DNA from: Solobacterium sp.
GTDB lineage: Bacteria; Bacillota_I; Bacilli_A; Erysipelotrichales; Erysipelotrichaceae
DNA: 19,174 nt
Assembly (NCBI GenBank): GCA_017543025.1
Contig: JAFYGX010000161.1
Location: forward strand, 1-19,174
Reading direction: 5' to 3'
Both the position numbers and the translations under genes were made by a program. Position 1 is the stretch's first letter. Every line of letters starts with the position of its first letter. Below, piece by piece: positions 1-15,359 of the stretch. The notes beneath the pieces were generated by a model. That model did not search any database, was not told where the DNA came from, and worked only from the letters and a program-made list of their open reading frames with translations.

Positions 1-2
1 CT

Positions 3-134
3 GCAGCGTACGGAATTCACGGAATCCGTTCCATCGCACAGACGCACGATCCCTCGCGCAGCTCCTATCCATGCATCGATCAGCCCGGCGATCTTCCTGC
101 ACTGCTGAAAGAAATGAACGGAGGAAGTTTATGA
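3..134 (+). CDS. C-terminal end of a truncated gene, possibly HAD-type hydrolase
   Basis: This frame is open from the window edge to a TGA at 132-134. It encodes 43 residues that begin AAYGIHGIRSIAQTHDPS and end LPALLKEMNGGSL. The stop overlaps the next start as ATGA, the usual sign of a translationally coupled upstream gene, so this is probably a real 3' end. The pattern (Gly-Ile-Arg-Ser-Ile-Ala, then a short variable stretch, then a terminal Asp-Leu-Pro-Ala-Leu-Leu helix) resembles the last strand and helix of HAD-superfamily phosphatases. That resemblance is weak, and other families are possible. Confidence 0.5.
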   Translation, partial: AAYGIHGIRSIAQTHDPSRSSYPCIDQPGDLPALLKEMNGGSL

Positions 135-607
135 GAAGAAGAGACCGCGAGATTACTGACCGCACGGAAATCATTCAGATCCTTCAGGACTGTGATGTGA
201 TTCATCTTGCCATCTGTTCACCGAACGGGCCGCCCTGTATTGTGCCGATGAGCTTCGGCATGGAAGATACGGATCAGGGGCTTCTGCTCTGGTTTCACAG
301 TGCGAAAGAAGGCAGAAAAATCCGTTTGCTCGAACAGAATCCAACCATCTCCTTCGAAGCGGACACAGACCGGCAGCTGCTGTTTGATGACGCAAAACAG
401 AACTGCTCCACAACATACCGGTCCGTGATCGGAACCGGTACCGTCCGTTTTGTGTCTGAAGAAGAAAAGCTTCATGGCCTGCAGTGTCTGATGGCTCACT
501 ATCATATGGAAGAAAAACCGATCAATACCGCAATGATTCCTCAGACTGCCGTTTTCTGCCTGAAGGCAGAGACGCTCACCGGCAAACAGCGGAAGAAACC
601 GGAATAA
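131..607 (+). CDS. pyridoxamine 5'-phosphate oxidase-like FMN-binding protein (NimA-like)
   Basis: The product has 158 residues and a split-barrel flavin-binding fold typical of small pyridoxamine-phosphate-oxidase-like proteins, including the NimA/5-nitroimidazole reductase type. Seen in the sequence: an N-terminal helix, then IHLAICSPNGPPCIVPMSF (first barrel strands), then WFHSAKEGRKIRLLEQNP, which is the family's signature flavin/phosphate-contacting strand and helix, and a later barrel strand SVIGTGTVRFV. The start at 131 is preferred over an in-frame ATG at 71 because GGAGGA (120-125) lies seven bases ahead and the preceding gene ends there as ATGA. It is the second gene of a + strand run. 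The true substrate cannot be inferred: members reduce diverse compounds with FMN or bind haem or F420. Confidence 0.85.
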   Translation: MRRRDREITDRTEIIQILQDCDVIHLAICSPNGPPCIVPMSFGMEDTDQGLLLWFHSAKEGRKIRLLEQNPTISFEADTDRQLLFDDAKQNCSTTYRSVIGTGTVRFVSEEEKLHGLQCLMAHYHMEEKPINTAMIPQTAVFCLKAETLTGKQRKKPE

Positions 608-622
608 CCGCCTGATCAGATT

Positions 623-1450
623 ATGACTTCGTTCCTCTTTTTTGCACTGCAGAAAGAAGCTGCACCGCTGATCCATGCATTGAATCTGAAACAGACAGAC
701 GGCCGCATCCGCTGTTTCCGAAATGAAGATACCATTCTCACACTGACCGGTACCGGACCGCTGTCCGCTGCCGCTGCAGTTTCGGCAGTACTGGCACAGA
801 ATCAGGCAGATGAAACAGACTTTCTGATCAACGCCGGAATCGCTGCTGGGGTCGCTGGGGCAGAATGGATGCGTGTATACCGGATTCACAAAGTACATGA
901 CTGTGCCTCAGAACGGGATTATTATCCCGACCTTCCATCGGACCGGCTGTTTCCGGAGGCAGCGCTTCTGACCGGCAGTGCGCTCTTTCGAAAAGGGCAG
1001 CACGCAATCCATTCAGAAAGCCCGCTGCTTTATGATATGGAAGGTTCCGCCATCCTGCATGCCGGGTCCATGTTTCTTCCGCTTCATCGCATCTGTCTGC
1101 TCAAGGCAGTCAGCGACAGCGGGGAAGTGCCTTCCGATGAAACGATCAGCCGCTGTGCATCCCTGTTATGCGATGCGGTTCTGCGTGAGCTTGAACGGCT
1201 GCGCAGCGACAGTTCCCCTGTCCCGCCGCATAGCGACATACCCTCATCCCTCAGAACCCTGTCTGCAGAGCTGAACGCTTCTGTAACCATGGAGCGGCGT
1301 CTGAATCAGCTGCTGCGTTATTGTGCCCTTGCAGGGATTGATCCTTCTTCCGTTCTGCAGCAGCTCCGTGAAGCAGGCCGGCTGCCGGCCGCTTCCAGAG
1401 AAGAAGGAAAAAAAATACTGGAGGTGCTGTTTCATGAGCTCCTGCCGTAA
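623..1450 (+). CDS. MTAN/phosphorylase-superfamily nucleosidase with C-terminal extension
   Basis: The product has 275 residues. The first ~195 match the 5'-methylthioadenosine/S-adenosylhomocysteine nucleosidase fold: FALQKEAAPL with an acidic residue (Glu12) where the MTAN catalytic acid lies, LTGTGPLSAAAAVSAVL (Gly-rich ribose/phosphate loop), LINAGIAAGVAGA, DMEGSAIL (Met139-Glu140, the ribose-binding ME pair) and KAVSDSG (Asp165, purine-contacting). Known family members hydrolyse methylthioadenosine, adenosylhomocysteine and 5'-deoxyadenosine. About 75 extra C-terminal residues form predicted helices and have no counterpart in ordinary MTAN. No clear Shine-Dalgarno precedes the ATG, 15 bases after the previous stop, so translation may depend on coupling. 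The end overlaps the next gene by 17 bases. The superfamily is secure; the exact substrate is inferred. Confidence 0.75.
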   Translation: MTSFLFFALQKEAAPLIHALNLKQTDGRIRCFRNEDTILTLTGTGPLSAAAAVSAVLAQNQADETDFLINAGIAAGVAGAEWMRVYRIHKVHDCASERDYYPDLPSDRLFPEAALLTGSALFRKGQHAIHSESPLLYDMEGSAILHAGSMFLPLHRICLLKAVSDSGEVPSDETISRCASLLCDAVLRELERLRSDSSPVPPHSDIPSSLRTLSAELNASVTMERRLNQLLRYCALAGIDPSSVLQQLREAGRLPAASREEGKKILEVLFHELLP

Positions 1451-2432
1451 ACTCTTTTCTCATATTTATGTCGAGGAAGATCTTCTGGACACAGAACGTG
1501 CACAGGCTGTCCTCCGGTTATTTCCGCAATCCTGTGTAATCCCTGTGCGTCGCTATACAGATGTGTTTTCCCGTTCCTCGCAGAGCTATCAGGCACAGCG
1601 CAGCTGTCCGAATCTGATTCTCGCCCGCAAGCACGGCACCTTCCTCTATCCCGGGGCACCGGTCTGCCAGAGCTTTGGCGCAGAGCGTTTTTTCTATACC
1701 TCTTCCACGCTCAACTGCATTTATGACTGCGATTACTGCTGGCTGAAGGGGATCTACTCCACCGCAAACATCGTCCTCTTTCTGAATATGGAAGATTTTC
1801 TGGAAGCGGCCCGCAGCCTGCTGGCTGAAGGCCCGCTCTATCTTTCTCTGTCCTATGAAACCGATATGGTTCCGTTAGAATCCATCAGCCATCAGATCCG
1901 TCAATGGAACGACTTCATTCTTGAACAGCCCCTGCTGACTGCGGAAATCCGCACGAAATGCGGGAATACAACTCTCTATTCCAGGCTTCAAAGCAATCCC
2001 AGGCTCTTTGTTTCCTTCACACTGTCTCCGCAGTCTCTGATCGATGCCTGTGAGCACTATACCGCCTCGCTCGCCCAGCGGCTTGCGGCAGCGAATGCGG
2101 CGCTGGACGCTGGCTTTCCTGTCCGGCTCTGCTTTGATCCTCTGATCCGTTTTCCTTCCTGGAAAGAAGCTTATTCTGATCTGATCGATACGGTACGGAC
2201 TTCGACAGACCTTGCCCGCATCAGCGGATTCAGCGTCGGTTCCTACCGGCAGTCCGACGGTTATCAGCGCCGCATGCGGAAACGCTTCCCGGAACTGGCC
2301 GTGCTCCAGTATCCATACGAGACCGTAAACGGCTATTGCCAGTATGATTCTGCCCGCCGGGAAGAGATCGAACAGTTTGTTTATTCGAAATTAGCGCTAT
2401 ATACGGATCCGGACAGAATCTTCCGTCTTTAA
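1434..2432 (+). CDS. radical SAM protein, spore photoproduct lyase family
   Basis: The product has 332 residues. The start at 1434 is chosen because GGAGG (1420-1424) lies ten bases upstream; an earlier in-frame ATG at 1323 lies deep inside the nucleosidase gene. Cys95-x3-Cys99-x2-Cys102 (CIYDCDYC) is the radical-SAM [4Fe-4S] motif with the spacing of spore photoproduct lyase, and downstream blocks (LSYETDMVPLESISH, RLAAANAALDAGFP, DPLIRFPSWKEAY) match that family's barrel. In the Bacillus enzyme, as I recall it, the equivalent of Tyr141 is the cysteine that donates hydrogen to the thymine product. Here the aligned position is Tyr, so repair of spore photoproduct is doubtful. Coupling to a nucleosidase gene suggests a shared pathway. 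Confidence 0.85.
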   Translation: MSSCRKLFSHIYVEEDLLDTERAQAVLRLFPQSCVIPVRRYTDVFSRSSQSYQAQRSCPNLILARKHGTFLYPGAPVCQSFGAERFFYTSSTLNCIYDCDYCWLKGIYSTANIVLFLNMEDFLEAARSLLAEGPLYLSLSYETDMVPLESISHQIRQWNDFILEQPLLTAEIRTKCGNTTLYSRLQSNPRLFVSFTLSPQSLIDACEHYTASLAQRLAAANAALDAGFPVRLCFDPLIRFPSWKEAYSDLIDTVRTSTDLARISGFSVGSYRQSDGYQRRMRKRFPELAVLQYPYETVNGYCQYDSARREEIEQFVYSKLALYTDPDRIFRL

Positions 2433-2491
2433 CGCGCTGATTTCCTGTACGCTTTGAAGAAACACTGCCATTCAGAAAGGATCCCCTGTCT

Positions 2492-3193
2492 ATGCATGAG
2501 CTTGCATTGGTTACCGGTGCCTCTTCCGGCATCGGAAAAGCGATCAGCCGCCGGCTGATCTCACTTGGCTATGAAGTATACGGAATCGGACGCACATTCT
2601 GCAGCGAAGATCCGATTCAAAGCCCGCTGTTTCATCCTGTTGAGCTGGATCTGCTTGACACAGCAGCCTGGGAACGATTTGCGGCGTCACTGCCGCATGA
2701 TCGGCTCAGAGTGCTGATCAACAATGCCGGCACAGCCTGGTACGGCACGCTGGAAACCCTGCACGCAGAAGAGATTCAGAACATGTGCCGCACAGATCTC
2801 GAAGTGCCGATTCTGATCTGCAATTCTCTGCTTCGGACCCTGAAACGAAACCAGGGGTACATTATCAATATCTGCAGCGTCACTGCACTTTCCGTCAGCA
2901 CGCATGGTGCGGTTTATGGTGCCTGCAAAGCCGGTCTGCTTCATTTCAGCCGCACGCTGTTCGAAGAGCACCGCAAAAGCGGGCTCCGCGTCTCTGCCAT
3001 TCTGCCCGATATGACAGAGACAGCGCTTTACCGGAACGCGGATTTCACTGCAGATTCTTCCTTTGGCGCAAGCCTTTCCCCGCAGGATACCGCAGATGCG
3101 GTGGAAACCATTCTCCGTCAGAGAGAAGGTACTGTGATCAGCGAACTGGTGCTCCGCCCCCAGCTGCACCGGATTCTAAGAAAACCCCGTTAA
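2492..3193 (+). CDS. short-chain dehydrogenase/reductase (SDR)
   Basis: The product is a 233-residue classical SDR, predicted cytoplasmic. It has TGASSGIG (residues 8-15) for dinucleotide binding, NNAG (77-80) for structural stabilisation, a catalytic Ser around 129 (INICSVTALS) and the Tyr142-x3-Lys146 pair (YGACK). Arg20-Arg21 and Arg34 near the end of the second strand hint at NADP(H) preference, which is an inference. AAAGGA (2476-2481) precedes the ATG by about ten bases. It lies 59 bases after the radical SAM gene in the same direction and is likely the last gene of that run. Its substrate is unknown; co-occurrence with the flavoprotein, nucleosidase and radical SAM protein suggests a redox step on the same metabolite. 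Confidence 0.88.
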   Translation: MHELALVTGASSGIGKAISRRLISLGYEVYGIGRTFCSEDPIQSPLFHPVELDLLDTAAWERFAASLPHDRLRVLINNAGTAWYGTLETLHAEEIQNMCRTDLEVPILICNSLLRTLKRNQGYIINICSVTALSVSTHGAVYGACKAGLLHFSRTLFEEHRKSGLRVSAILPDMTETALYRNADFTADSSFGASLSPQDTADAVETILRQREGTVISELVLRPQLHRILRKPR

Positions 3194-3229
3194 CAGGAGA
3201 CAAGCATTCTGCTTCTCTGATTTCAAGCA

Positions 3230-3257
3230 TTGTATTCCCTTTTTTTAGAAGTAAGAT
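3230..3257 (+). promoter_or_regulatory. putative sigma-A promoter of the 38-residue peptide gene
   Basis: TTGTAT (3230-3235), a 16-base spacer and TAAGAT (3252-3257) lie about 40 bases before the start codon of the small gene. The spacer holds a T-run. This is inferred from hexamer similarity only. Confidence 0.45.
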
Positions 3258-3298
3258 AGGTAACCGGATGGCACATCTGAAGTGAAGGGGGAATTAAG

Positions 3299-3415
3299 AT
3301 GTACAGTGAAAGTGAAGAGATTCAGACAGAACGGCCGGTCGTTTATGACTGGGAAGTATCATCTTCTCTGACCAGCGAAGAGATCGAAGAGGTGACCGCA
3401 GAGATCCGCTTCTGA
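3299..3415 (+). CDS. small acidic 38-residue peptide, function unknown
   Basis: A short gene with unusually good signals: GAAGGGGG (3284-3291) lies seven bases before ATG, a promoter-like pair is upstream and a hairpin with a T-run is downstream. The peptide begins MYSESEEIQTERPVVYDWEV and ends EEVTAEIRF. It is strongly acidic, with 11 Glu and Asp against 2 Arg and no Lys, has no cysteine, no signal peptide and no transmembrane segment, and carries aromatic residues in a YDW core and a terminal Phe. I do not recognise a family. It could be a small regulatory or chaperone-like peptide, or a precursor of a modified peptide with a C-terminal core. The signals make coding likely; the role is unknown. 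Confidence 0.6.
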   Translation: MYSESEEIQTERPVVYDWEVSSSLTSEEIEEVTAEIRF

Positions 3416-3517
3416 GTCTTCGTATCTGTATCTGCCAGCGCTTTCTGCGATTCCTGCATGAAGGGTCGGTTTATCCGGCTGAACGAGTCAGCACGGAATC
3501 ACTGCCAGATTTCAAGC

Positions 3518-3560
3518 AAACGGACCCGATACCCGTTTACAGGCACCGGATCCGTTTTTT
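3518..3560 (+). terminator. intrinsic terminator after the small peptide gene
   Basis: The arms AAACGGACCC (3518-3527) and GGATCCGTTT (3548-3557) pair over ten positions with one mismatch, followed by a run of T to 3560. The inner CCGTTT (3533-3538) can also pair with the first arm, so two mutually exclusive hairpins are possible. The T-run touches the stop codon of the opposing subtilase gene. Confidence 0.65.
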
Positions 3561-6500
3561 CATCCCTTTCTGTAGGTGATCGGATTCGTGACAGCCGCAA
3601 GGTGAGAGGTCTCGTCCCATCTTACGATGTCATACACATAATCGATGATTCCAAGACGTGCATCGGCAGAAATATCTGCTTTGCCGGTATTGCCGGAAAC
3701 GTTCATATTTGCACTTCCGGATTCTGCGCTTACAAACTGATATCTGGTTCCTTTTTCATCCCGGATCACCCATTGATCCGCATCATGCCCGGTCGGAATG
3801 TCAAGGACTGCCTGTCCGGTTCTGGAAGAAGGATCAACAATGATCATTCGGTGCCAGGTCGTTCCTGTGCTGTCCGCAATGGAATACAGGAACGCCGGCT
3901 GGCCATAAGGCCCGTAATACTGTCGGATCAAGGCGTTGATGATGATCCTTGCAGACCAGTTCTTCACCTCATTCGATTCAATCTCTGCCTGATCGACAAT
4001 CTCCGTTGCCCGGTTGGTAAATGTCACATCGCTTTCCGTCAGGATCGCCCTGATATACAGCTTCTTTTCTTCCCCTGCCGCAAGATTCATCTTCCATGTC
4101 ACATGATTCCCGTTCCACGATGCGCCAGCTCCTTTTGAAACATACGTTTCTTTCAGCTCTCCGGCATCGAGTACCTTCAGCACGGACGGAACATCATCGC
4201 TGACCGTAAACAGACGGGTCGTTTCCGTCGGGTTTTTCACCGCAATCTCATAGAAGAATGTCTCATTCACTGCAATCGCCCTGCCATTCAGATCCACGCC
4301 GCCGACCGATCTGACCGTTTTCTCCGGCGGTACCGGCGTATATACCACTGTCTCATTCGTTTCGGCAGTGGGACCATGGTCTACGGTGACTGATGCGCGG
4401 TTGGGAATCTTTTTTCCCCATTCATCCGCATTTGTTTCAAATGTCACAGTCTTTTCTCCGCCTGCTGCGACCGTCACCTGCCAGGTGATCTGACTGCCGG
4501 AAAGACTTCCGCCGTCACTGATCGAATTCTGCCGCAGTTTCTGATACGGCTGTATCGTGTCTCTGATCGTAAAGACTTTTGCGGCAGAAGCAGGATTTTT
4601 TACCGTAATCTGATAACGCAGCACCGTTTCCTTTGAGACAGTCCTGCCATTGAGATCGGTTCCGGATGGATCCGTGATCTTTTTCACCGGATCCGGAAGC
4701 ACAGGGTTTTCTGTCGGATTGGTTGTGATCCTGACCTGATTAACCTCCGCTTCCGCTGTGTTCTTTACAATCTTCCCTTTCGCTTCATTCTTCACTTTCA
4801 CACGGAACGTTACGGTTTTCTCTTTCCCGGATGCGACATCCAGGGACCAGGTAAGAACGCCGCCCGCATTGTTTCCCCCGTCGCTCGCACTTCCTGCAAC
4901 ATACTCTGCAAGTGAAGGGATACTGTCTCTGATCGTGAATTTCTTTGTCTCGGAGAAGGTATTCTTCACTTTGATTTCATAAGTGAGAATGTCCCCGGCA
5001 CGCACCATATTTCCATCGATCACTGTACCTGCATCATTTTTTACGGTCTTCTCTGCCGGCGGTTTCGGAGAATAACGCACCTCAATCTTATGATCCGCAT
5101 TGATTCCGTTAAAACTGTAACTGCTGAGACAGTTTGAGAAGTCTGTATTCGTCCCGTCCACCTTCACATAATCCATGACGTAATCCGGCCGCGGTTCATA
5201 TCGGATTGTGCGTTTCTGACCGGAGCTGATCCCCGTTACAGCACCGGACGCATTCCATGTATTGTCTCCGACGGCACCGCTCTGTTCCATATCGTTGTTC
5301 AGCGTAATCTTTCCGTTGATCACTCTGGTGTCGATCCGGAACTGTTTCCGGTAGTACACATTGATCGTATGATCTTTCGCCGGCATAGTGCCCTTTACGG
5401 TCTTCTGTGCGCTGTCGCAGAGCACATATCCCGAAATATCTGGTGATGCCACTTCATACTGTGCCCCTGCCGCAAATACCTTCGGCCCGTACTTCGGCGA
5501 AAGCACTTTATCTGTGCCTTCTTCCAGGTAATTAATTGTCAGATTGTAATTCTGATCCGGCGCCTCATAGTAGAAGTCCACCCGGAAGCCCTCATAATCT
5601 ACTCCGCCGGATGTTTCTTCCCATCCTTTGCTGTTCCATTTCACAGCACCTTCTTCCCCGAGTTTCAGATTCACGGAAACCGCATTGGATAAAGATGTCA
5701 GCGGGACCGGCCCAGGAAAGACGATCGGTACGTTATGCGACCCGGGCCCGTAGTCTCCATCGTGATGATTGACAGCCTGCTGGGCAATCATTCCCCTGTA
5801 TGTAAAGCCGCTCAGCGTTTTTGCGTTCAGAGTGTACTCGCGGGAGGAGTTGAAATACCTGCCCGTATCCCCGTCCTCTTCTGCGGAAGATCCCCAGGAG
5901 GAAACGGTATTCGGTTTATGCGTGCTCGCAAATATCGAGTAACCGTGTCCAGGCGTGAATATCTCATCTGCATACTGCTGAAACAGCACATCATATCCGT
6001 TCTTTGTATCGGTTTTTGCATTCAGGATATCCTGCTGCACATTCGGGATCAGGATTGCATCTGCGGTCGTTGTCGCTCCATGCGGGATCTGCCAGAAATA
6101 CACATCGCCATACCGGAAGCCATTGCACTGTATATGAAAGTTCTCGTCCTCTCCGATCGGCACGCCTTTTCCATGGCTCTTCCCATCCCATTCATACCGG
6201 AAGAGATTCTTTTCCGTAAACCGGATCGGATCAGAAGCGATATGTTTCGAAAGAATTCCGCTGAATCTTGCGGCTGCTTCACTGGTCGTACCCGATGTCA
6301 CAAGATAATCCACTGTGCTTCCGAAGTTCGAAATGGTTCTGATCGCACCGTCCGGCCCGCAGCTTCCGATGATCAGTGCCGCTTCACTGCAGGAGGGAAG
6401 AAAATAAGAAGCGTTCATTCCCCGGTTGCCGGCAGCACCGACGACCGGAATTCCGTTTTTCACCGCCCGGCTGATCGCATCCAGGATGACGGTGCTTTTT

Positions 6501-7345
6501 TCAGACCGGACTGCACTGGCAGAAAGCGAAATGATATCCGCTTTCTGCGCAACTGCATACTCAATGGCGGCAAAGACAGAAGAAACAGTTCCGCTTCCTC
6601 CCTGATCCATCGCTTTGATGGAAAGGATTCTGGCATCCGGATTTTCCGCAAGGATCAGTTCTGCCATCTTCGTCCCGTGCCCGTTGTCGTCCTGCGGGTT
6701 CTCACCAAGCACACTGACAGCTGAAATGACTGCTCTGCAATCCGGATCCGCTCCGGTATCAATCAGTGCAATCACCGGTTTCTTCTCTGTCAGCACCACT
6801 GACGGTTCTTCCATCAGCTCACTCAGCTGCTGAAACGGATCGCTGTTTTCCGGCTCTTCTTCCGTTTCTTCATCCGCAATCTGAAATACCGCATCCCGTT
6901 CCGCGTGCTCCGCATGCTCGGAATAGTATTCCAACGCCTGTTTCAAGCTCTCTTCATCTTCGTATCCGAGTATGTACATATTCTCATACCTGGAAAGAAT
7001 GATATCCTCTGCCCGGATCTCACTGTCTGTAATCACAATCAGCCGGCAGGAATACGCTGCAGATTCCGGTTCTGCGGGCGTCTGAGGCCCGTCGATTTCC
7101 GCTTCCGGCTCCTGTTCTTCTTCTGCTTCTGACGGATCGCTTTCCGGATCCGCTTCCTCAATCAGTTCCGCTTCTTCGGTTTCCGGTTCCTCTTCTTCCT
7201 CCGGCACTTCCGGCTGTTCCGGTTCACTGATTTCCTCCGCCGGAACTTCTTCGCCTTCCGGCTGCTGTGCATATCCCGGCAGAATCGTGGAAACCCACAG
7301 AATTCCTGCCAGCAGGATTTGTATCATTGTGTGATGTCTGTTCAT
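3560..7345 (-). CDS. secreted modular subtilisin-like (S8) protease with MucBP-like and DUF11-type repeats
   Basis: The product has 1261 residues. In order: signal peptide (1-26, ILPGYA-QQ); a Glu/Pro-rich linker (28-95); an I9-like propeptide (about 98-160); a subtilase domain with Asp196 (VIALIDTGAD), His223 (NGHGTKMAEL), oxyanion Asn307 (GAAGNRG) and Ser355 (TTSEAAARFSG); an unassigned region (380-595); a MucBP-like module (599-666); another unassigned segment (667-760); three DUF11-type beta repeats (about 764-880, 885-1000, 1007-1128); and a C-terminal module (1129-1261) with no sorting signal or membrane helix. The serine motif departs from GTSMAAP: Gly is Thr and Pro is Ala, though the triad is intact. 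AAAGGGAG lies seven bases before ATG. As the last gene of the TasA-like operon, it probably acts outside the cell on, or as part of, the matrix. Confidence 0.85.
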   Translation of the reverse strand: MNRHHTMIQILLAGILWVSTILPGYAQQPEGEEVPAEEISEPEQPEVPEEEEEPETEEAELIEEADPESDPSEAEEEQEPEAEIDGPQTPAEPESAAYSCRLIVITDSEIRAEDIILSRYENMYILGYEDEESLKQALEYYSEHAEHAERDAVFQIADEETEEEPENSDPFQQLSELMEEPSVVLTEKKPVIALIDTGADPDCRAVISAVSVLGENPQDDNGHGTKMAELILAENPDARILSIKAMDQGGSGTVSSVFAAIEYAVAQKADIISLSASAVRSEKSTVILDAISRAVKNGIPVVGAAGNRGMNASYFLPSCSEAALIIGSCGPDGAIRTISNFGSTVDYLVTSGTTSEAAARFSGILSKHIASDPIRFTEKNLFRYEWDGKSHGKGVPIGEDENFHIQCNGFRYGDVYFWQIPHGATTTADAILIPNVQQDILNAKTDTKNGYDVLFQQYADEIFTPGHGYSIFASTHKPNTVSSWGSSAEEDGDTGRYFNSSREYTLNAKTLSGFTYRGMIAQQAVNHHDGDYGPGSHNVPIVFPGPVPLTSLSNAVSVNLKLGEEGAVKWNSKGWEETSGGVDYEGFRVDFYYEAPDQNYNLTINYLEEGTDKVLSPKYGPKVFAAGAQYEVASPDISGYVLCDSAQKTVKGTMPAKDHTINVYYRKQFRIDTRVINGKITLNNDMEQSGAVGDNTWNASGAVTGISSGQKRTIRYEPRPDYVMDYVKVDGTNTDFSNCLSSYSFNGINADHKIEVRYSPKPPAEKTVKNDAGTVIDGNMVRAGDILTYEIKVKNTFSETKKFTIRDSIPSLAEYVAGSASDGGNNAGGVLTWSLDVASGKEKTVTFRVKVKNEAKGKIVKNTAEAEVNQVRITTNPTENPVLPDPVKKITDPSGTDLNGRTVSKETVLRYQITVKNPASAAKVFTIRDTIQPYQKLRQNSISDGGSLSGSQITWQVTVAAGGEKTVTFETNADEWGKKIPNRASVTVDHGPTAETNETVVYTPVPPEKTVRSVGGVDLNGRAIAVNETFFYEIAVKNPTETTRLFTVSDDVPSVLKVLDAGELKETYVSKGAGASWNGNHVTWKMNLAAGEEKKLYIRAILTESDVTFTNRATEIVDQAEIESNEVKNWSARIIINALIRQYYGPYGQPAFLYSIADSTGTTWHRMIIVDPSSRTGQAVLDIPTGHDADQWVIRDEKGTRYQFVSAESGSANMNVSGNTGKADISADARLGIIDYVYDIVRWDETSHLAAVTNPITYRKG

Positions 7346-7359
7346 TTACTGTCTCCCTT

Positions 7360-7956
7360 TCAGATCCGGCTGTACTGCCAGGCTTCCTTCCAGGAGCAGT
7401 CAGCTGCCTCTCCTCCCGGTGTCTTTGCCTGTTTTGTCTGAATGCTTTCGGTGCGGACATAGATGTCGTAATCCATCTTTCCGCTCTTTTCTGTAAACGT
7501 GGTCGATACCTTCTGAATCAGCTCATCTGTTTTCTGTCCTGGCTGCAGCGGCTTCGTGTAGTACAGATAACGTTCTTCGCCTTCTGTCCACCCCTCCGGC
7601 AGACGGGACTTCAGTTCGGATGCGGCAAACGTTCCCGTACTGTTGGTAATGGTGGAGCACTGTTCTGCTCTGGGATCGCTGAATTCAATACGCACCCGTA
7701 CGTAAACCGGAACCGATCCGGTATTTTCCACGCTGACGCTCTTTGCATAATCTGTTGTCCCGTAATCGGTTACAATCTTCGGGTTAAAGTCCGGTTCTCT
7801 GATCTCTACGGTATTTTCTGCAAATCCTGCCGGGTTGGAATGTTTCTCCGAAGATGCATAGTAAGCCGCCGTCACGCCTGCACTGCCTGCCGACAGAAGG
7901 CATATGACAGCCGCGCATACTGTCGCTTCCCGCATTCTCTGTCTGCTGTAGTTCAT
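7360..7956 (-). CDS. SipW-dependent TasA/camelysin-like surface protein (second)
   Basis: The product has 198 residues starting MNYSRQRMRE. This start is preferred over an upstream in-frame ATG at 7989 because GGGG lies eight bases before it and the preceding gene stops only four bases away; the upstream start would put ten coding codons inside that gene. Residues 11-31 are hydrophobic and lead into TAAYYASSEKHSNPAGFAEN, the layout of SipW-type signal peptides (a short cleavable segment, then aromatic residues, a spacer and a Phe). VSVENTGSVPVYVRVRIEF and YLYYTKPLQPGQKT are typical of the TasA/camelysin jelly-roll family. Known members are exported, cut by SipW and form fibres or coat the surface. 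It likely pairs with the neighbouring homologue; which is the major subunit is unknown. Confidence 0.82.
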   Translation of the reverse strand: MNYSRQRMREATVCAAVICLLSAGSAGVTAAYYASSEKHSNPAGFAENTVEIREPDFNPKIVTDYGTTDYAKSVSVENTGSVPVYVRVRIEFSDPRAEQCSTITNSTGTFAASELKSRLPEGWTEGEERYLYYTKPLQPGQKTDELIQKVSTTFTEKSGKMDYDIYVRTESIQTKQAKTPGGEAADCSWKEAWQYSRI

Positions 7957-7960
7957 CTGC

Positions 7961-8812
7961 TTAACCCCGCTTCTTTGCATGCAAATCAAGCTTGTTGGAG
8001 GTATCCGCTTCCTGAATATCGGAAAGGTCTGCCCGGGCAGCAGCGATCCGGTAAATATCCTTTAACATTTCTGCACTCATGTTTTTCGTTGATTCTGCGG
8101 TTGTCACCGCGCCGCTGCTCAATGTGAGATTCTCCGCCTGCACCGCGAGAAAATACACTTCAATTCCGGATTCCTTACCGGATTCAAACGAACCTTCGAC
8201 GAAATTCTGCGCCTGTATACTGTCAAACAGCGTATCGGTCTTTGTCGGCTGATCCGCGGTTCCGCCGGGAATGGAATCCCGGTATCCGAAGATGTAGCGG
8301 CGGGCTGCTGTATTTGCCGGTACTGTGGAAGCAGCATTGAGCGCCGGTCCGGTCGTATTTCCCTTTTCATCGATGTACATACTGTCCGCCAGCACCCAGT
8401 TTGCGGTATTGAAGCCTTCGGTTTTATCTGCTTTCAGAAACCGGAAAATCTCCACATCCGCTTCCGGAAGCAGATGTCCGTCTTTATCGGACAGCCTGGT
8501 CTTTGTGCGGATCGGACTGTCAACGACGATATACCCGACCGCAAGATTCGTACCTGTATTCTCGATACGCGGATTTTTCGCTTCGATCTGACAGGGAACC
8601 ATGTGCTTTGTCTTTTCCGGATTCCAGAGCGTTTCCGTTCCGTCGATCGTCACATCGCCAAAGCTGTAGCTGTTTGTATGATGTTCACTGTCCGTAAAAT
8701 ACGCTGAGGTTGATTCTGCCGGCGCACGGTTCAATACCGCCGTAACTCCCGCAGAAGCCGCCATTGCCATGACCGCAGCAGCGGTCCGTTTTGCCAAAAG
8801 TGTGTAGTTCAT
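7961..8812 (-). CDS. SipW-dependent TasA/camelysin-like surface protein (first)
   Basis: The product has 283 residues starting MNYTLLAKRT. An ATG three codons earlier (8821) overlaps the sipW-like stop as ATGA, but GGG (8823-8825) is only one base from it and ten bases from 8812, so 8812 is favoured. Both starts share the frame. After a hydrophobic segment (about 10-27) comes STSAYFTDSEHHTNSYSFGD, a clear SipW-type processing region, with cleavage expected around residue 38. IENTGTNLAVGYIVVDSP is the TasA-family strand motif. It is larger than the second homologue, with insertions in the barrel. Family members are secreted and polymerise into biofilm fibres or form a surface coat. The MNY start it shares with the next gene suggests gene duplication and divergence. 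Confidence 0.85.
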   Translation of the reverse strand: MNYTLLAKRTAAAVMAMAASAGVTAVLNRAPAESTSAYFTDSEHHTNSYSFGDVTIDGTETLWNPEKTKHMVPCQIEAKNPRIENTGTNLAVGYIVVDSPIRTKTRLSDKDGHLLPEADVEIFRFLKADKTEGFNTANWVLADSMYIDEKGNTTGPALNAASTVPANTAARRYIFGYRDSIPGGTADQPTKTDTLFDSIQAQNFVEGSFESGKESGIEVYFLAVQAENLTLSSGAVTTAESTKNMSAEMLKDIYRIAAARADLSDIQEADTSNKLDLHAKKRG

Positions 8813-8817
8813 CTTCT

Positions 8818-9321
8818 TCATTCCCTTTCTTTATTCTGTTTCCCAAGAAATACCGCTCCGAATGCGGCTCCGGCAGATACTGCCGTCAATCCGATGCGAA
8901 TACGCAAATCACTGATCAGATAACCAAGATACGGAAGCGCACAGACGTCTGTTCCGATAATCTGTTCTGCTTTGATGCGGTTCAGATCAGCCGTCTGATT
9001 TGCATCGCCTTTCATGATCAGTTCCCCGGTTTCAGTGATTTCATTGACCCGATGCGTCACAATCATGGAAGACGGATTGTCTGTAATGTGATAGGTCATG
9101 ATCTTTCCGACATCGGGCGTTCGATCCTGCTGATTCACCAGAACCAGCGAACCAACCGGTATTTCCGGCTCCATGGACCCTGAGGTAACCGCATAGGCAG
9201 AAAAGCCGAACAGCCGCGGCAGATTGGAAAGACCGGCCCGTAATACAAGAAGCGCAGCGCTGACAAAGAAAATCAGCTTTAGTGTTTTACGCAGTCCGTC
9301 TTCTGTCTGTATTCCGCTCAT
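8818..9321 (-). CDS. sipW: SipW-type (ER-type, S26B) signal peptidase I
   Basis: The product is a 167-residue membrane protease that removes signal peptides from TasA-like exports. Seen: an N-terminal membrane helix (about 12-30); the catalytic Ser49 in VTSGSMEPEIPVGSLVLV; His90 in VTHRVNEI, where ordinary bacterial type I peptidases have lysine, marking the archaeal/ER class; KGDANQTAD with Asp106; and a second helix near the C-terminus (about 140-160) before a charged tail. The ATG overlaps the stop of the anchored-protein gene by ATGA, and its own stop overlaps the next gene by ATGA, so synthesis is coupled to its presumed substrates. The symbol is used for family membership; orthology with the Bacillus gene is inferred. 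Confidence 0.92.
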   Translation of the reverse strand: MSGIQTEDGLRKTLKLIFFVSAALLVLRAGLSNLPRLFGFSAYAVTSGSMEPEIPVGSLVLVNQQDRTPDVGKIMTYHITDNPSSMIVTHRVNEITETGELIMKGDANQTADLNRIKAEQIIGTDVCALPYLGYLISDLRIRIGLTAVSAGAAFGAVFLGKQNKERE

Positions 9322-10472
9322 TCCGGAAGCCTCTTTCTGCGCTCCAGATTCAGAATCAGCACTGCTGCTGCAGCGACCGCAACACTGATGCTCAGCAGGA
9401 TACCGGCAGCCGCCAGTGAACTGCTGTCACCGGTTTTCGGTGTGATTCTCTGCGGCGTATTCAGCTCTGCCCGGAAGATCCATTTCTGATGGGTATGTTC
9501 CAGTTCAAATTCATTTTTCAGTGTCTCCGGCACTTCCAGTTCATAGGTGAGTACGGCCTGCCATTTCGGCGTCATGTATGCAAGATACATCTCGTTCATC
9601 GCATCCTTCAGGGTTCCGGAAAAGATCTGCATCTCACCTGCTCTGACCCGAAGCCGCACCTGCCTGGCAAGCTCATCATTCTCAGTGCCTTCGATTCTGA
9701 AATACAGTCTTACCGGCTGATGGTATCCGTTTCCGATCACAACGCTGTCCTGAACGCGATCTCCCGGCATCAGCGTCCTGAAGTTATCGAACAGATCGCC
9801 GGTATTCGCAATCAGTCCCTGCGCGCCTCCTTCATAGCTCACAAAGAAATGTGTTTCTCCGGTGGGCTTGTTGCGGAATGTGTCATAGACTGAAGTCTCG
9901 ACTACCGTGCCGAACCACGGGTCCTCCGCATTGAAGTCCGGTTTGAAATTGTCATACTGTACGGCATCCGCCCACACCACTACGTTGAAGCTGGTATTTC
10001 TGACACTGTTTTCCTCTGTTCCCGGCACCCGTACTTCCTTCGTAAAACGGATTGTCTTTCCATGGTCTACCGGTTCGGTGTAATACCAGAAATCCTTTTT
10101 CTTTGCCCAGTGCTCGTCGTCTGCGAGAATCACCCAAGAGGGATCGAGATCTGTGATTTTCCGGTCTCCGTCTACCATCACCTTTGCGCGGATCCATGAC
10201 TTGTGACCGTTCACTGTGATCTTTGACAGCTTTGAAATGGTTTCTCCCGGAAGAATAATCTTCCGGTCAGCGTTTCCTTCAATCGGTGTTTCTTTTCCTG
10301 CTGCGTCAACCTTGAATTCATTCAGGCTGATTGACACATTGCCGAGTCCGATGTTGTTTACTGTTTCTGTTGAAGATCCCTCCGCGATTACCGGCAACAG
10401 ACCCGTAAACAGCAGGAATGCAGTGATGATGACACCGGACATCCGCTTGAAACTGTTAAACGTTACGTGCAT
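9318..10472 (-). CDS. sortase-anchored TasA-like surface protein with TPKTGD sorting signal
   Basis: The product has 384 residues. It has a Sec signal peptide (about 1-30, cleavage near PVIA-EGS), an extracellular region, and a C-terminal sorting signal: TPKTGD at 344-349, a hydrophobic segment, then RRKR. The first position of the LPxTG motif is Thr instead of Leu. Two TasA-like units can be read: about 45-185 (ILPGETISKLSKITVNGHK, DFWYYTEPVDHGKTIRF, WADAVQYDNFKPDFNAEDPW) and about 205-340 with a pronounced strand content. The start has AAAGGAAGG eight to ten bases upstream. It is the first gene of the five-gene operon and is probably the wall anchor or base of the structure built by the two downstream homologues. 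A sortase gene is not in this window. Confidence 0.82.
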   Translation of the reverse strand: MHVTFNSFKRMSGVIITAFLLFTGLLPVIAEGSSTETVNNIGLGNVSISLNEFKVDAAGKETPIEGNADRKIILPGETISKLSKITVNGHKSWIRAKVMVDGDRKITDLDPSWVILADDEHWAKKKDFWYYTEPVDHGKTIRFTKEVRVPGTEENSVRNTSFNVVVWADAVQYDNFKPDFNAEDPWFGTVVETSVYDTFRNKPTGETHFFVSYEGGAQGLIANTGDLFDNFRTLMPGDRVQDSVVIGNGYHQPVRLYFRIEGTENDELARQVRLRVRAGEMQIFSGTLKDAMNEMYLAYMTPKWQAVLTYELEVPETLKNEFELEHTHQKWIFRAELNTPQRITPKTGDSSSLAAAGILLSISVAVAAAAVLILNLERRKRLPE

Positions 10473-10584
10473 GTTTTCCTTCCTTTCTCCGTCAGAATTT
10501 CACGCCTGACATTTTTCTTATTGCCGGCATTTTTCAAAAACCCGAAGAAATCAGAAAAATATTTTTAAAATTATTTCCTGGCCC
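10473..10584 (-). promoter_or_regulatory. AT-rich leader and likely promoter region of the surface operon
   Basis: Between the terminator of the zinc-ribbon gene and the operon start there is an AT-rich stretch with AAAAATATTTTT and a GCCGGC palindrome. The promoter must lie here if the operon has its own. A TTGAAA hexamer can be seen on the - strand (10529-10534), but no convincing -10 follows at the right distance, so exact boxes are not assigned. Confidence 0.4.
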
Positions 10585-10623
10585 GAAAAAAAGAAAAAAA
10601 GCAGGCCGGGCTTTCCGGACTGC
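10585..10623 (-). terminator. intrinsic terminator of the zinc-ribbon gene
   Basis: Read on the - strand, GCAGTCCGG and CCGGCCTGC form a stem (one mismatch, five-base loop; + positions 10601-10623). It is followed by TTTTTTTCTTTTTTT (complement of 10586-10600). It ends the transcript from 11118 before the surface operon. Confidence 0.8.
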
Positions 10624-10725
10624 TTCACATACATTATTTCACCGCAGATTTTCTTCCTGCGCTATTCACCGGCAATCCCGCATGTTTCCCGGATTCCGGC
10701 ACGGCCGTTCCGCCGCATTTCTCCC

Positions 10726-11118
10726 TTATGCAAGCTTTCTGCCGCACTTTGAGCAGAACTTCGCATCAGACGGAAGCTTTGTTCCGCATTCCACACAGAA
10801 CTGAGCTGCTTCTGCACCTCCGGCTTTCTCCGGTTTTCCGTTCAGGGCAGCTTCAAGCCGTTTCATGATTTTTGTCTTTTCCGGTCCGTCTTCCATCGGA
10901 ACACAGAACCAGGCAACCGAATACTCATATTGATCGGTCGCCCCGATTGCGCCTTCTTCCGACAGAACATATGCCTTCGGTGCTTCCAGGTCCGGATTTT
11001 TGTCCATTGCGTCAACCAGCTCAAGAATTGTCACAGGTTTGCCTTCTATATTTACCCACACGCTGCAGAGACTTCCGGCTTCCTTCACCAGCTCTGCAAA
11101 TGACTGAAATCGTTTCAT
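10726..11118 (-). CDS. small protein with C-terminal double-cysteine zinc ribbon
   Basis: The product has 130 residues. The N-terminal ~95 form a mixed alpha/beta region (RFQSFAELVKEAG, KPVTILELVDAMD) that I do not recognise. The C-terminus carries Cys108-x2-Cys111 and Cys122-x2-Cys125 (FCVECGTKLPSDAKFCSKCG), a standard zinc-ribbon found at the end of many Bacillota proteins. It has no signal peptide or membrane helix, so it is predicted cytoplasmic. GGAGG lies eight bases before the ATG. It has its own promoter and terminator and so is a single-gene unit; its position before the surface operon does not by itself link the two. Its function is unknown; a DNA- or protein-binding role is possible. 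Confidence 0.8.
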   Translation of the reverse strand: MKRFQSFAELVKEAGSLCSVWVNIEGKPVTILELVDAMDKNPDLEAPKAYVLSEEGAIGATDQYEYSVAWFCVPMEDGPEKTKIMKRLEAALNGKPEKAGGAEAAQFCVECGTKLPSDAKFCSKCGRKLA

Positions 11119-11139
11119 GCTTTTTCCTCCGTAATGCAG

Positions 11140-11174
11140 TCTGGTATTCCAGACCAGAATGTTCTTTCATTATA
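11140..11174 (-). promoter_or_regulatory. promoter -10 and leader hairpin of the zinc-ribbon gene
   Basis: TATAAT on the - strand (complement of 11169-11174) lies about 50 bases before the start codon. The -35 is poor (TTACGG, 15 bases upstream). The leader holds a small inverted repeat, TCTGG-4-CCAGA (11140-11153). Confidence 0.55.
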
Positions 11175-11241
11175 ATCGATATTGATTCTCCGTAATCCTT
11201 CATCCGACAGCCCGCAGCCGGATCATTCCGCAGCCCTGATC

Positions 11242-11278
11242 CAAAGAAAAGCCCTGCTCCTTTTCAGGAACAGAGCCT
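11242..11278 (-). terminator. intrinsic terminator of the lysine operon
   Basis: On the - strand GCTCTGTTCCT pairs with AGGAGCAGGGC over eleven positions including two G-T pairs, with a five-base loop, followed by TTTTCTTT. It lies 14 bases after the ddh stop. Confidence 0.9.
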
Positions 11279-11291
11279 GTGATGAATCTGA

Positions 11292-12272
11292 CTACAGCAG
11301 ATGTGCCCGCATCTCTTCCGGCGTCAGCGTACTGAGCAGTACCGGAGGGATATCAAATACCGTCTTACAGCCGGTATCTCCCCTTTCATTCAGGCGCCTG
11401 ACAGCTCTTGCATAAGCAGTCAGCACACTGGCAGTAAATTCCGGGTTGGAATCCAGTTTCAGGCTGAATTCGATCACATGATTATGATCGGCTCCGGTTT
11501 TACCCGTGCGGATCACAAATCCGCCGTGAGCCATGCCGGAATGATCCTGCTCAAACTCCTCTGCTGAAATGAAATGTACTGTAGTATCATAATCCGCAAA
11601 GTAATTCGGCATAGTGACAATCGCTTCTTCTACTGCCTTTGCATCCGCGCCTTCTTTCAGTACGACAAAGCACTCGCGCAGGTGCTTGTCGCGTACGCTC
11701 AGCTCCGGATTTGATCCGCTGCGCACAGCTTCCAGCGCTTCTTCTCTTGGAATCGTATACTGTTTTGCATTCGCAACGCCTTCAATCCGGCGAATCGCAT
11801 CGGAGTGACCCTGAGAAACGCCTTTGCCCCAGAATGTATAATCGGTTCCATCAGGAAGAACCGCCCCGGCATAGGCACGGGCAAGTGAGAACAGTCCCGG
11901 ATCCCAGCCAACGGAGATCATTGCGATATGCCCGCTTTCCTTCGCCGATTGATCCACATTCGCAAAATGGGACGGAATATTGGCATGTGTATCGAAGCTG
12001 TCAATCACATTGAAATACTTTGCATACTCCGGCGTCTGTACCGGAAGATCTGTTGCGCTGCCGCCGCAGATCATCAGTACATCGATCCGATCCTTCCAGT
12101 TCATCAGATCATTCACGGAAACAACCGGAACATTCTCTGAAGCAATCTTCAGAGATGCAGGATCTCTGCGGGTAAATACCGCCGCAAGTTCCATATCTTC
12201 CGCTGCATTTACCGCACACTCCACGCCGCGTCCGAGATTTCCATAACCAAGCAGTCCGATTCTTGTCTTCAT
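11292..12272 (-). CDS. ddh: meso-diaminopimelate D-dehydrogenase
   Basis: The product has 326 residues, the usual length of this enzyme (EC 1.4.1.16), which converts tetrahydrodipicolinate with NADPH and ammonia directly to meso-diaminopimelate and so bypasses the succinyl or acetyl branches. Seen: GLLGYGNLGRGVE (N-terminal Rossmann loop), AAVFTRRDPASL, ICGGSATDLP, NVIDSFDTHANIPSHF, ISVGWDPGLFSLAR, FWGKGVSQGHSDAIRRIEGV and HNHVIEFSLKLDSNPEFTA, all characteristic blocks. GGAGGAG lies six to eight bases before ATG. It is the last gene of lysA-dapA-dapB-ddh, 14 bases after dapB. Its presence means the operon needs no dapD, dapE, dapF or transaminase for lysine and cell-wall precursor. Confidence 0.96.
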   Translation of the reverse strand: MKTRIGLLGYGNLGRGVECAVNAAEDMELAAVFTRRDPASLKIASENVPVVSVNDLMNWKDRIDVLMICGGSATDLPVQTPEYAKYFNVIDSFDTHANIPSHFANVDQSAKESGHIAMISVGWDPGLFSLARAYAGAVLPDGTDYTFWGKGVSQGHSDAIRRIEGVANAKQYTIPREEALEAVRSGSNPELSVRDKHLRECFVVLKEGADAKAVEEAIVTMPNYFADYDTTVHFISAEEFEQDHSGMAHGGFVIRTGKTGADHNHVIEFSLKLDSNPEFTASVLTAYARAVRRLNERGDTGCKTVFDIPPVLLSTLTPEEMRAHLL

Positions 12273-12286
12273 TTTCCGCTCCTCCT

Positions 12287-12991
12287 TCAGAACAACAGGT
12301 CATTCATGTCATACATGCCGGCTGGCTGTTTTACCAGATACTCCGCCGCCCGGATTGCTCCGTTGACGAAGATCTGGCGGCTGGCCGCATGATGTGTCAG
12401 AGTGATCGATTCGTTATTTCCGAAAAACAGAACCGTATGTTCGCCCGCTTCTGTTCCGCCTCTTACCGCATGAACGCCGATCTCTCTCTGCCGTGCGCCG
12501 CACATTCCTTCCCTGCCGTATACTTCCCGGAATTCCCCATCCGGATTCATAATCTCAAGCAGAGATTTTGCGGTTCCGCTCGGCGCATCTTTCTTCTGAT
12601 TATGGTGCGTTTCGATCAGCTCCATATCAAAGCTGTCTTTCAGCAGAGGCACCGCTGTCGCAACCAGCTTCCGCAATACGGCAACGCCATAGGAGAAGTT
12701 GGAACTGTAAAATACCGGGATTGTTTCTGCAAGTTCCTTCAGAACTGCCTTATCTTCTTCGGTAAGACCGGTTGTTCCGTAAACCAGCGCACAATGATGC
12801 TTCAGCACATATGTTTTAATCCAGGAAAGATTGTCGCGATGGCTGAAGTCGATCACCACATCTGCCGCTTCCTTCTGCAATGCGCTCTGATCAAACGCAT
12901 CTGCACAGCCAAGCACCGTATGTCCGGCTTCCGCCGCAGTGGAGGCAATCAGTGATCCCATCTTTCCTTTTCCGCCGATAAGGATCTTCAT
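12287..12991 (-). CDS. dapB: 4-hydroxy-tetrahydrodipicolinate reductase
   Basis: The product is a 234-residue cytoplasmic NAD(P)H-dependent reductase of the diaminopimelate pathway, somewhat shorter than the 270-residue proteobacterial enzyme, as is common in Bacillota. Seen: GGKGKMGSLIA (dinucleotide loop), VVIDFSH, VYGTTGL, YSSNFSYGVAVL, and the family signature ELIETHHNQKKDAPSGTA with the catalytic His pair and Lys. The C-terminal block NGAIRAAEYLVKQPAGMYDM is also typical. The start overlaps the dapA stop by four bases; the nearest ribosome site-like GAGG is about 14 bases upstream, so reinitiation from dapA is likely. Confidence 0.96.
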   Translation of the reverse strand: MKILIGGKGKMGSLIASTAAEAGHTVLGCADAFDQSALQKEAADVVIDFSHRDNLSWIKTYVLKHHCALVYGTTGLTEEDKAVLKELAETIPVFYSSNFSYGVAVLRKLVATAVPLLKDSFDMELIETHHNQKKDAPSGTAKSLLEIMNPDGEFREVYGREGMCGARQREIGVHAVRGGTEAGEHTVLFFGNNESITLTHHAASRQIFVNGAIRAAEYLVKQPAGMYDMNDLLF

Positions 12992-13866
12992 AACAGACCA
13001 GCTTTCCTCATTTCGGCATAGAGGGTTTCCCTGTTCTTTTCCGCCATCTCATACAGCGGCAGACGGTATCCGCCGACATTCATGCCCATCGCATTCATCG
13101 CTTCCTTGACCGGAATCGGATTCACTTCGCAGAACAGTGCATGGATGTAATCCAGATATTTCTGCTGAATTTCAAGCGATCCGGCATAATCGCCTTCAAA
13201 CCATTTCGCGACAAGCTCATGGCACTCTTTCGGATTCGTGTTGGCAAAGACGCTGATCACGCCCGAGCCGCCGAGGGAAAGAATCGGAACGATCATGTCG
13301 TCATTTCCGCTGTACATCACGAAGTCATCGCTCAGATATCTTGAAATACTGACCGCAAAGCTGATATTACCGCTGGCTTCCTTGATTCCGATGATATTCG
13401 GATGACCGGAAAGACGTTCTACCGCCTTCACGCTCAGGGAGCAGCCGGTACGGCCCGGCACATTGTAAAGAATGACCGGAGCGCTGACCTGATCCGCAAC
13501 TGTTGTGAAATGACGGATCATTCCTTCTTCATTTGCCTTGTTGTAATACGGCGTAATCGCAAGCAGTGCATCCGCCCCCATATCTGCATATTTCTTTGAT
13601 TTCATAAGCATGGTTGCAGTGTCATTGGACCCTGAACCCGCAATTACCGGAATCCGCCCGTTTATGGTTTTCAGGGTAAACTCCACAACCGCATCGTCTT
13701 CCTCATGCGTCATGGTCGTGCTTTCGCCTGTCGTTCCCAGCACAAGAATGCCGTCGGTATGATTGGCCACATGCCATTCCAGCAATTCTCCGAGCTTCTC
13801 AAAATTTACGCTTCCGTCCGGATTGAACGGGGTTATGAGTGCAACAATCGAACCCTTGATCATCAT
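12988..13866 (-). CDS. dapA: 4-hydroxy-tetrahydrodipicolinate synthase
   Basis: The product is a 292-residue aldolase of the N-acetylneuraminate lyase fold that condenses pyruvate with aspartate semialdehyde, the first committed step to lysine and diaminopimelate. Seen: Schiff-base Lys162 in GIKEASGN, pyruvate-binding GTTGES (44-49), TPYYNK with Tyr107/108, and YNVPGRTG with Tyr134 and Arg139. Two adjacent ATGs are possible (13866 or 13863). AGGAGG overlaps the lysA stop codon and lies five or eight bases before them, so the second may be the true start. It sits nine bases after lysA. Confidence 0.97.
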   Translation of the reverse strand: MMIKGSIVALITPFNPDGSVNFEKLGELLEWHVANHTDGILVLGTTGESTTMTHEEDDAVVEFTLKTINGRIPVIAGSGSNDTATMLMKSKKYADMGADALLAITPYYNKANEEGMIRHFTTVADQVSAPVILYNVPGRTGCSLSVKAVERLSGHPNIIGIKEASGNISFAVSISRYLSDDFVMYSGNDDMIVPILSLGGSGVISVFANTNPKECHELVAKWFEGDYAGSLEIQQKYLDYIHALFCEVNPIPVKEAMNAMGMNVGGYRLPLYEMAEKNRETLYAEMRKAGLL

Positions 13867-13875
13867 CTCTTCCTC

Positions 13876-15132: not shown

Positions 15133-15147
15133 AGTCTCTTACCTCCA

Positions 15148-15180
15148 AAAAAAGAACCGGCGGAATCCTACCGCCGGCAT
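15148..15180 (-). terminator. riboswitch-controlled intrinsic terminator before lysA
   Basis: On the - strand GCCGGCGG and CCGCCGG form a strong stem (+ positions 15155-15179) with a seven-base loop, followed by TTCTTTTTTT. The lysA Shine-Dalgarno begins immediately after the T-run. Confidence 0.88.
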
Positions 15181-15198
15181 ACATGAAATCACCAGACC

Positions 15199-15350
15199 GA
15201 TAGCACTCCTGCTTTCGCAGACAGTCTGCCGGATGTTCTCCGGCAGCCCACCGTTTCACAGCGCCCTGCAAAACAGTTCGGCGAACTTGCTGGAGAGGGA
15301 CGTCACTGCCTGCCGGCTCTGTCTCCTTCCATCGCATCCGCGCCTCTATC
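15199..15350 (-). ncRNA. lysine riboswitch (L-box) aptamer
   Basis: The leader of lysA carries the L-box signature on the - strand. GATAGAGGCGCG opens the aptamer and pairs (GATAG) with CTATC in the closing GGAGTGCTATC. The internal CGCCGAA and GGGCTGCC blocks sit in the conserved order known from the Bacillus lysC leader. The aptamer is about 150 bases long, and an intrinsic terminator follows within about 20 bases. Established knowledge: lysine binding stabilises the aptamer and favours the terminator, so transcription of the lysine genes stops when lysine is plentiful. Predicted to control lysA-dapA-dapB-ddh as one unit. Confidence 0.93.
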
Positions 15351-15359
15351 ATCGAAAAA

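Follow-up and report, generated by a model that had tools for sequence, protein, structure and literature searches.

A conserved five-gene operon with a predicted SipW-type signal peptidase, BsaA/TasA-like subunits and a modular subtilase in Solobacterium sp.

In the sipW-bsaABCRSD operon of Clostridium perfringens, the gene for the signal peptidase SipW lies together with those for secreted subunits of the BsaA family; the export of BsaA requires SipW, and BsaA polymerises without the nearby sortase (PMC7395162). The tapA-sipW-tasA operon of Bacillus subtilis has the order accessory/anchor gene, SipW-type peptidase gene, and subunit gene, with overlapping stop and start codons of tapA and sipW (PMC9674648 and PMC10151520), and TasA polymerises by strand exchange (PMC9674648). 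In sortase-assembled pili, the tip pilins may carry a vWA domain (PMC5817068). Here, we describe a five-gene operon (genes A to E) in a 19,174-nucleotide stretch of DNA from Solobacterium sp. (GenBank assembly GCA_017543025.1, contig JAFYGX010000161.1, positions 1 to 19,174 of the forward strand; hereafter, the window), which resembles both SipW operons and also encodes a modular subtilase.

The genes run in the order A-B-C-D-E on the minus strand from position 10472 to 3560, with open reading frames (ORFs) of 384, 167, 286, 198, and 1261 codons. The A/B and B/C junctions are each a 4-bp ATGA overlap, the C/D junction is a 4-bp gap when gene D starts at the ATG at position 7956 (the longer TTG start in the ORF list is unnecessary), and the D/E junction is a 14-bp gap carrying a GGGAGA site. 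An earlier model-made reading of this DNA (hereafter, the sequence-only reading) had described five ORFs joined by ATGA overlaps or gaps of no more than 14 bp; the ORF listing and the sequence agree with it in both respects.

The operon shares with sipW-bsaABCRSD the presence of SipW and a BsaA-family secreted subunit in one operon, but it has five genes without two-component genes, adds a wall-anchor subunit and a modular subtilase, and its protein D scores 34 bits against the BsaA model (cut-off, 60). With tapA-sipW-tasA it shares the gene order, the SipW-type peptidase, and a first gene whose stop codon overlaps the start codon of the second. Unlike that operon, its protein A combines a BsaA-like domain with a sorting-signal-like tail, which is not described for TapA in the available parts of PMC9674648 and PMC10151520; in addition, A, C, and D have no match to the TasA equivalog at E-values up to 1, and two subunits and a protease follow SipW. 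It also differs from a sortase-assembled pilus: no sortase match was found among the 13 window proteins scanned with Pfam (lysA, dapA, dapB, and ddh lay outside the scan), and proteins C, D, and E end without a sorting-signal tail.

No SipW operon with a subtilase was found in the open-access literature among the matches listed, and for SipW in Erysipelotrichaceae nothing beyond a general review was found among the matches listed in open-access full texts. The individual parts of the operon are of known kinds; their combination and the fused anchor are new.

Conservation of the five-gene order

Among 272 genomes of the family Erysipelotrichaceae, the five genes occur in the same order in three (G031, G040, and G039; loci L112, L113, and L114, respectively), with 44–65% protein identity. 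Identities to the window proteins are 59–62% for A, 45–62% for C, 48–51% for D, and 47% for E, and each of the three relatives has a 4-bp overlap between genes D and E. All three loci are flanked by convergent sdr and splB genes, and lysA/dapA lie on the opposite side in L112 and L113 but are absent in L114. Full-length A is present only in these three genomes; in a fourth, G077, a truncated A lies at the end of one contig (L154) and residues 578–1259 of E at the end of another (L115), the two contigs being unjoined. When 315 genomes of the order were searched with a profile of E (A4), full-length E was likewise found in G031, G039, and G040 and contig-cut E in G077. A genome scan with E itself as the query gave no match; it was a scan with the neighbouring ddh protein that led to the relatives.

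Given that three genomes share this gene order, all with the 4-bp D/E overlap, the link between the protease and the presumed fibre genes is not accidental, but it is rare. Chance, artefact, or misassembly as its source is ruled out by the repetition of the order in three other genomes. On the question set beforehand, namely whether homologous loci lack the protease, every intact A–D locus found (3/3) has it adjacent. The related expectation that the subtilase should not occur mainly elsewhere holds for full-length E, confined to those three of the 315 genomes (plus the contig-cut copy), and fails for relatives of its catalytic head, which are mostly found in other places. The conserved order and the profile matches described below thus support the sequence-only reading in so far as it describes a SipW/TasA-like surface operon that includes a wall anchor and to which a modular subtilase is physically linked.

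SipW scored over the cut-off at 85 places in 63 of the 272 genomes, and is therefore common in the family, yet a full-text search of the open-access literature for SipW in this group listed one paper, a general review. G031, G039, and G040 each have exactly one such match, the operon's own. A Pfam subtilase lies within 20 kb of SipW in these three of the 63 SipW-positive genomes, and in the other 60 none was found within that distance on the same contig; the expected neighbourhood of sipW-like genes and subtilases is thus real in three genomes and rare overall. A vWA domain within 6 kb of SipW is not general either, being present in four of the 63 genomes (G201, G166, G125, and G016; the first two contain loci L145 and L152). 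Both counts are lower bounds because many contigs are short.

The encoded proteins and their counterparts

Gene B (8818..9321, minus strand; 167 amino acids) matches TIGR02228 with 74 bits, over the cut-off of 51.85, and by this profile it is a SipW/ER-type signal peptidase, as the sequence-only reading had proposed. Its score against the Bacillus SipW equivalog NF046067 (77 bits) is below that model's cut-off of 190. Residues S49, H90, D106, and D112, which we take to be the catalytic residues of ER-type peptidases, are kept in the three orthologues.

Genes C (7961..8821, minus strand; 286 amino acids) and D (7360..7956, minus strand; 198 amino acids) encode predicted secreted subunits, C with a SipW-type motif recognised by eye (SAYFTDSE) and D resembling BsaA. 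The two are homologous by profile comparison (hhalign, 95.7%, E-value 1e-8). Profile A5 was built from 13 D-like subunits, of which three rows are D proteins of this operon and 10 come from other loci; in each of G031, G039, and G040 it retrieved exactly three proteins at E-values up to 0.001, namely the operon's D (182–196 bits, as profile rows or a near copy), A (53–55 bits), and C (28–36 bits), and in G077 a single match, the A at the contig end. A search of PDB sequences with A, C, D, and the 13-row profile gave nothing below an E-value of 0.24. The curated models place C. perfringens BsaA nearest among described families, and subunits of other SipW operons that match TIGR04090 score 20–48 bits, likewise under its cut-off of 60. 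The comparison with Bacillus SipW and TasA drawn in the sequence-only reading therefore stands as regards a SipW/TasA-like surface operon, with TasA alone being too narrow a reference. Its two SipW-dependent proteins are weakly matched by the curated models TIGR04088 and TIGR04090, both below cut-off, whereas A5 retrieves the operon's A, C, and D alone in each of the three related genomes. In G058 (L150 4475–5980, plus strand), a C-like gene precedes the beginning of an A-like gene that runs into the contig end, the reverse of the window order; as the contig ends there, the presence of a protease cannot be judged.

Gene A (9318..10472, minus strand; 384 amino acids) encodes a signal peptide (by eye), a BsaA/TasA-like domain (residues ~34–183), a wall-anchor domain (~210–340), and a sorting-signal-like tail, in which the motif TPKTGD (residues 344–349; 9426..9443, minus strand) is followed by a hydrophobic stretch and the basic end ERRKR. 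The pattern [TI]P[KN]TGD with a hydrophobic stretch and a basic tail is present in all four aligned A proteins, that of the window included, and a sortase (PF04203) was found in all four relatives. Ten other genomes of the 272 match one or both halves of A, and in each of G247 and G222 a pair of adjacent genes matches one half apiece. In other SipW operons, the second half corresponds to a protein of its own, which has a conserved core and whose tail is hydrophobic with a basic end (alignment A6); L144, L146, and L147 show a clear xPxTG motif, which is less strict in others, and the anchor protein of L148 scores over the LPXTG cut-off (17.6 vs 15.9 bits). Because the halves match separate neighbouring genes elsewhere and the first half matches the BsaA-like profile, A is a fusion of a BsaA-like subunit with an anchor that other genomes encode separately. 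The relationship between A and D rests on the wider profile, since their direct profile comparison gave only 2%. Of the wall-anchored TasA-like protein put forward earlier, the BsaA-like match and the motif and tail thus hold, and the curated anchor models are below cut-off or absent.

Gene E (3560..7345, minus strand; 1261 amino acids) encodes a Sec-type signal peptide, an acidic linker, and a propeptide-like region (these three by eye), followed by a subtilase (peptidase S8) domain, an unmatched region, a MucBP-like region, three DUF11 stretches, and a C-terminal domain. The S8 domain (residues 188–373; 6227..6784, minus strand) matches PF00082 with 64.4 bits over residues 188–346 (cut-off, 21.8), and NF049966 over residues 192–373 below the cut-off. 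D196, H223, N307, and S355 are invariant in the four E orthologues and in 15 of 15 aligned heads; this count omits the L116 row (residues 100–221, before the catalytic domain) and includes L118 and L119, which are near copies from one genome. The usual subtilase serine motif is GTSMAAP; that of E is TSxAAA. The protein is accordingly assigned, on its profile match and conserved residues, to the subtilases with an Asp/His/Ser triad and an oxyanion Asn, and a PDB sequence search returned subtilisin-type proteases (best 60 of 87 matches). The 1261-residue subtilase proposed earlier is thus confirmed by profile; of its further modules, DUF11 is matched (60.8 bits, three stretches) and MucBP falls below its cut-off (21.6 bits; cut-off, 23).

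We further examined ten loci with distant relatives of A (L144–L153). SipW profile matches are present in five (L145, L146, L148, L151, and L152), and the E profile had no match in any of the ten. Seven (L145–L149, L151, and L152) contain a recognisable cluster of BsaA-like subunits, SipW being found in five of these; a large protein or a probable cut tail of one accompanies six of the seven, L146 ending too early. The large, adhesin-like proteins span 819 to 1539 codons within the stretches covered and carry a vWA domain in three of the seven compared loci (L145, L147, in which the 5' end is cut, and L152) or List_Bact repeats (L151), or have no Pfam match (L148); in L149, a 165-amino-acid tail remains. 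In L148, L151, and L152, SipW is followed in turn by the subunits, the large protein, the BsaA-like protein, and the anchored protein, and in L148 a sortase gene comes next. As in the window operon, a BsaA-like gene is in several of these clusters followed by a wall-anchored gene, the two being homologous to the halves of A; unlike the window operon, the clusters keep these halves separate, have more subunits, and have no S8 domain in the large protein. The window operon contains parts of these same kinds, but its counterparts of the last two are fused as A and stand at the front. Protein E appears to take the place of the large adhesin-like protein by the parts list rather than by homology, since its C-terminal domain could not be linked to that of the large proteins, controls scoring about alike. 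A seeming homology of the two C-terminal domains, noticed by eye and in an initial comparison (E-value 0.0087), did not stand out from these controls.

Heads related to that of E also occur in 11 non-orthologous loci (L116–L126). A sortase gene is close by in five of these, over the Pfam cut-off in L121 and L124 and below it in L123, L125, and L126 (21–22 vs 26.6 bits); for the remaining six, the sortase scan covered at most single neighbours. The three head proteins scanned with Pfam (L117, L121, and L125) all contain SpaA domains, and those of L117 and L125 contain TQ ester-bond domains. In a tree of the heads, those of the four E proteins cluster together with modest support (77/93); L116 and L117 lie near them, and the branches are long. 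The sortase-linked subtilase adhesins (L121 and L123–L126) are thus long surface proteins with a homologous short S8 head and the TSxAAA serine motif; they differ from the operon in their SpaA stalks where scanned (L121 and L125), the TQ ester-bond domains in L125, the sortase alongside, and the lack of SipW-operon matches. The protein at L117 2147–6736 (minus strand) joins a subtilase head to an NlpC/P60 domain and to three stretches each of TQ ester-bond and SpaA domains.

Proposed function and competing explanations

From the gene set and profiles, we infer, with what we regard as an even chance of being right, that the operon builds a wall-anchored protein fibre of the BsaA/TasA type that displays protease E outside the cell. 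B would process the specialised signal peptides of both C and D; strand exchange through the freed N-termini, as described for TasA, would then join C, D, and the BsaA-like half of A. C and D would polymerise on A, which would form the fibre base and be tied to the wall by a housekeeping sortase. E would leave by the ordinary Sec route, shed its propeptide, and sit on the fibre or its tip through its DUF11 or C-terminal modules, where it may cut host, mucus, food, or rival proteins. In favour of this reading are the conserved gene order with the D/E overlap, the restriction of full-length A to genomes with full-length E, the A5 matches, the counterparts of the anchor half of A in other SipW operons, the sortase in all four relatives, the single SipW of each of the three genomes, the vWA-bearing large partners, and the invariant catalytic residues of the heads. 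The operon could then encode the first case of a strand-exchange fibre whose large tip-like protein is an active subtilase and not a vWA adhesin, a proposal that we consider possible but doubtful.

Several results weigh against a protease-bearing fibre. C and D score 12.8 and 12.9 bits against the SipW-dependent signal peptide model TIGR04088 (cut-off, 19), D scores 34.2 bits against TIGR04090/BsaA (cut-off, 60), C scores 12.7 bits against PF12389 (cut-off, 22.5), and none of A, C, and D matches the TasA equivalog NF046066 at E-values up to 1. For anchoring, A has no match to the LPXTG model TIGR01167 at E-values up to 1 and scores 11.4 bits against srtB_target (cut-off, 18.15), and E has no sorting signal by eye. 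With a trimmed six-row profile of the large proteins, the C-terminal domain of E gave E-values of 0.05–0.15, and the controls, the DUF11 segment and protein A, gave 0.06–0.10 and 0.10. E is also rare (4 of 315 genomes, one contig-cut), and the operon profiles for A, SipW, C, and D had no match in L116–L126 (stretches of 3.5–18 kb). The single-sequence structure models were unusable, with a predicted local distance difference test score of 37 (protein A) and 35.

The failure of C and D to reach the curated TasA and BsaA cut-offs or to be matched at all, would fit a small set of SipW-exported, wall-linked surface proteins in which C and D do not polymerise and no fibre is formed. We regard this as improbable, because in three relatives the SipW-operon subunit profile also covers A, C, and D, and the described relative of such subunits, BsaA, polymerises by itself (PMC7395162). 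The role of E raises a separate question. E may be the fibre's own processing or remodelling protease, trimming subunits, maturing the anchor, or breaking the fibre down for dispersal; its linkage to A–D with the 4-bp D/E overlap in all three intact relatives fits such a role, and the sub-threshold NCBIfam matches of its head include QhpE, which matures a partner enzyme, as well as mycosin and PatA, all of them proteases whose names refer to maturation or secretion systems. This explanation seems unlikely to us in view of the related heads in 11 loci without operon-profile matches, five of them near sortase genes, which indicate that the head is not tied to BsaA fibres, and of the 60 of 63 SipW-positive genomes in which no subtilase was found within 20 kb on the same contig, from which the fibres seemingly need none.

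The Sec-type signal seen by eye, the lack of a visible sorting signal, and the occurrence of such subtilase heads in other surface clusters would also suit a co-transcribed but independent secreted or surface protease, serving nutrition or colonisation and sharing only its regulation with the fibre. That all three genomes with full-length E have it in the operon argues against this (the fourth, contig-cut, is not judgeable), and we consider such independence quite unlikely. The sequence-only reading had speculated that the protease might trim, cross-link, or cap the fibre. Related heads occur together with adhesins of the sortase type, which makes action of the E head on outside proteins at least as likely. 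The occurrence of vWA in some loci and a protease here suggests that the fibre head is exchangeable, and the parts list, comprising a peptidase, subunits, one large partner, and a fused or split anchor, provides a testable base/shaft/head model of such fibres. If the proposal is true, a bacterial fibre would serve as the carrier of an enzyme, and gut bacteria would possess a fibre that cuts what it touches.

Flanking elements and neighbouring genes

The operon ends at an 18-bp hairpin resembling an intrinsic terminator (3518..3557, minus strand; −32.4 kcal/mol, with z −6.5 for the stretch 3500–3570). Between gene A and the zinc-ribbon gene upstream of it is a weaker hairpin with a T run (10598–10626; z −1.3). 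An Rfam search gave no match at gathering scores. Upstream of gene A is a conserved leader element (10509..10556, minus strand), a candidate promoter shared with relatives L112, L113, L114, and L154, which can be written approximately as GGGGATTT-N10-GGCAATAAGGA and precedes gene A in the window and the four relatives. A longer form of the pattern, allowing up to three mismatches, matched six sites across four genomes, gene A following three of these sites, and a reversed control gave none; the copy before A in G077 is too divergent for this search. Of the other sites, one stands before a lipoprotein-like gene (L211) and another before a gene with likely tilS, hpt, and ftsH genes behind it (L212; names by eye). 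The element looks like an unusual promoter common to a few genes.

The genes lysA-dapA-dapB-ddh (names by eye; window 11292–15132, minus strand) are all close together in L002, L003, and L008, and only lysA-dapA still adjoin the operon in L112 and L113. The ddh protein is 80% identical to that of L001, from a metagenome-assembled genome labelled Clostridia, and 77–78% identical to those of L002 and L003, from metagenome-assembled genomes labelled Erysipelotrichaceae; the host is thus probably an uncultured bacterium of this family. On the other side, a spore photoproduct lyase-like gene (window 1323–2432, plus strand; PF20903, 61 bits) adjoins the operon or the contig-cut E in four relatives.

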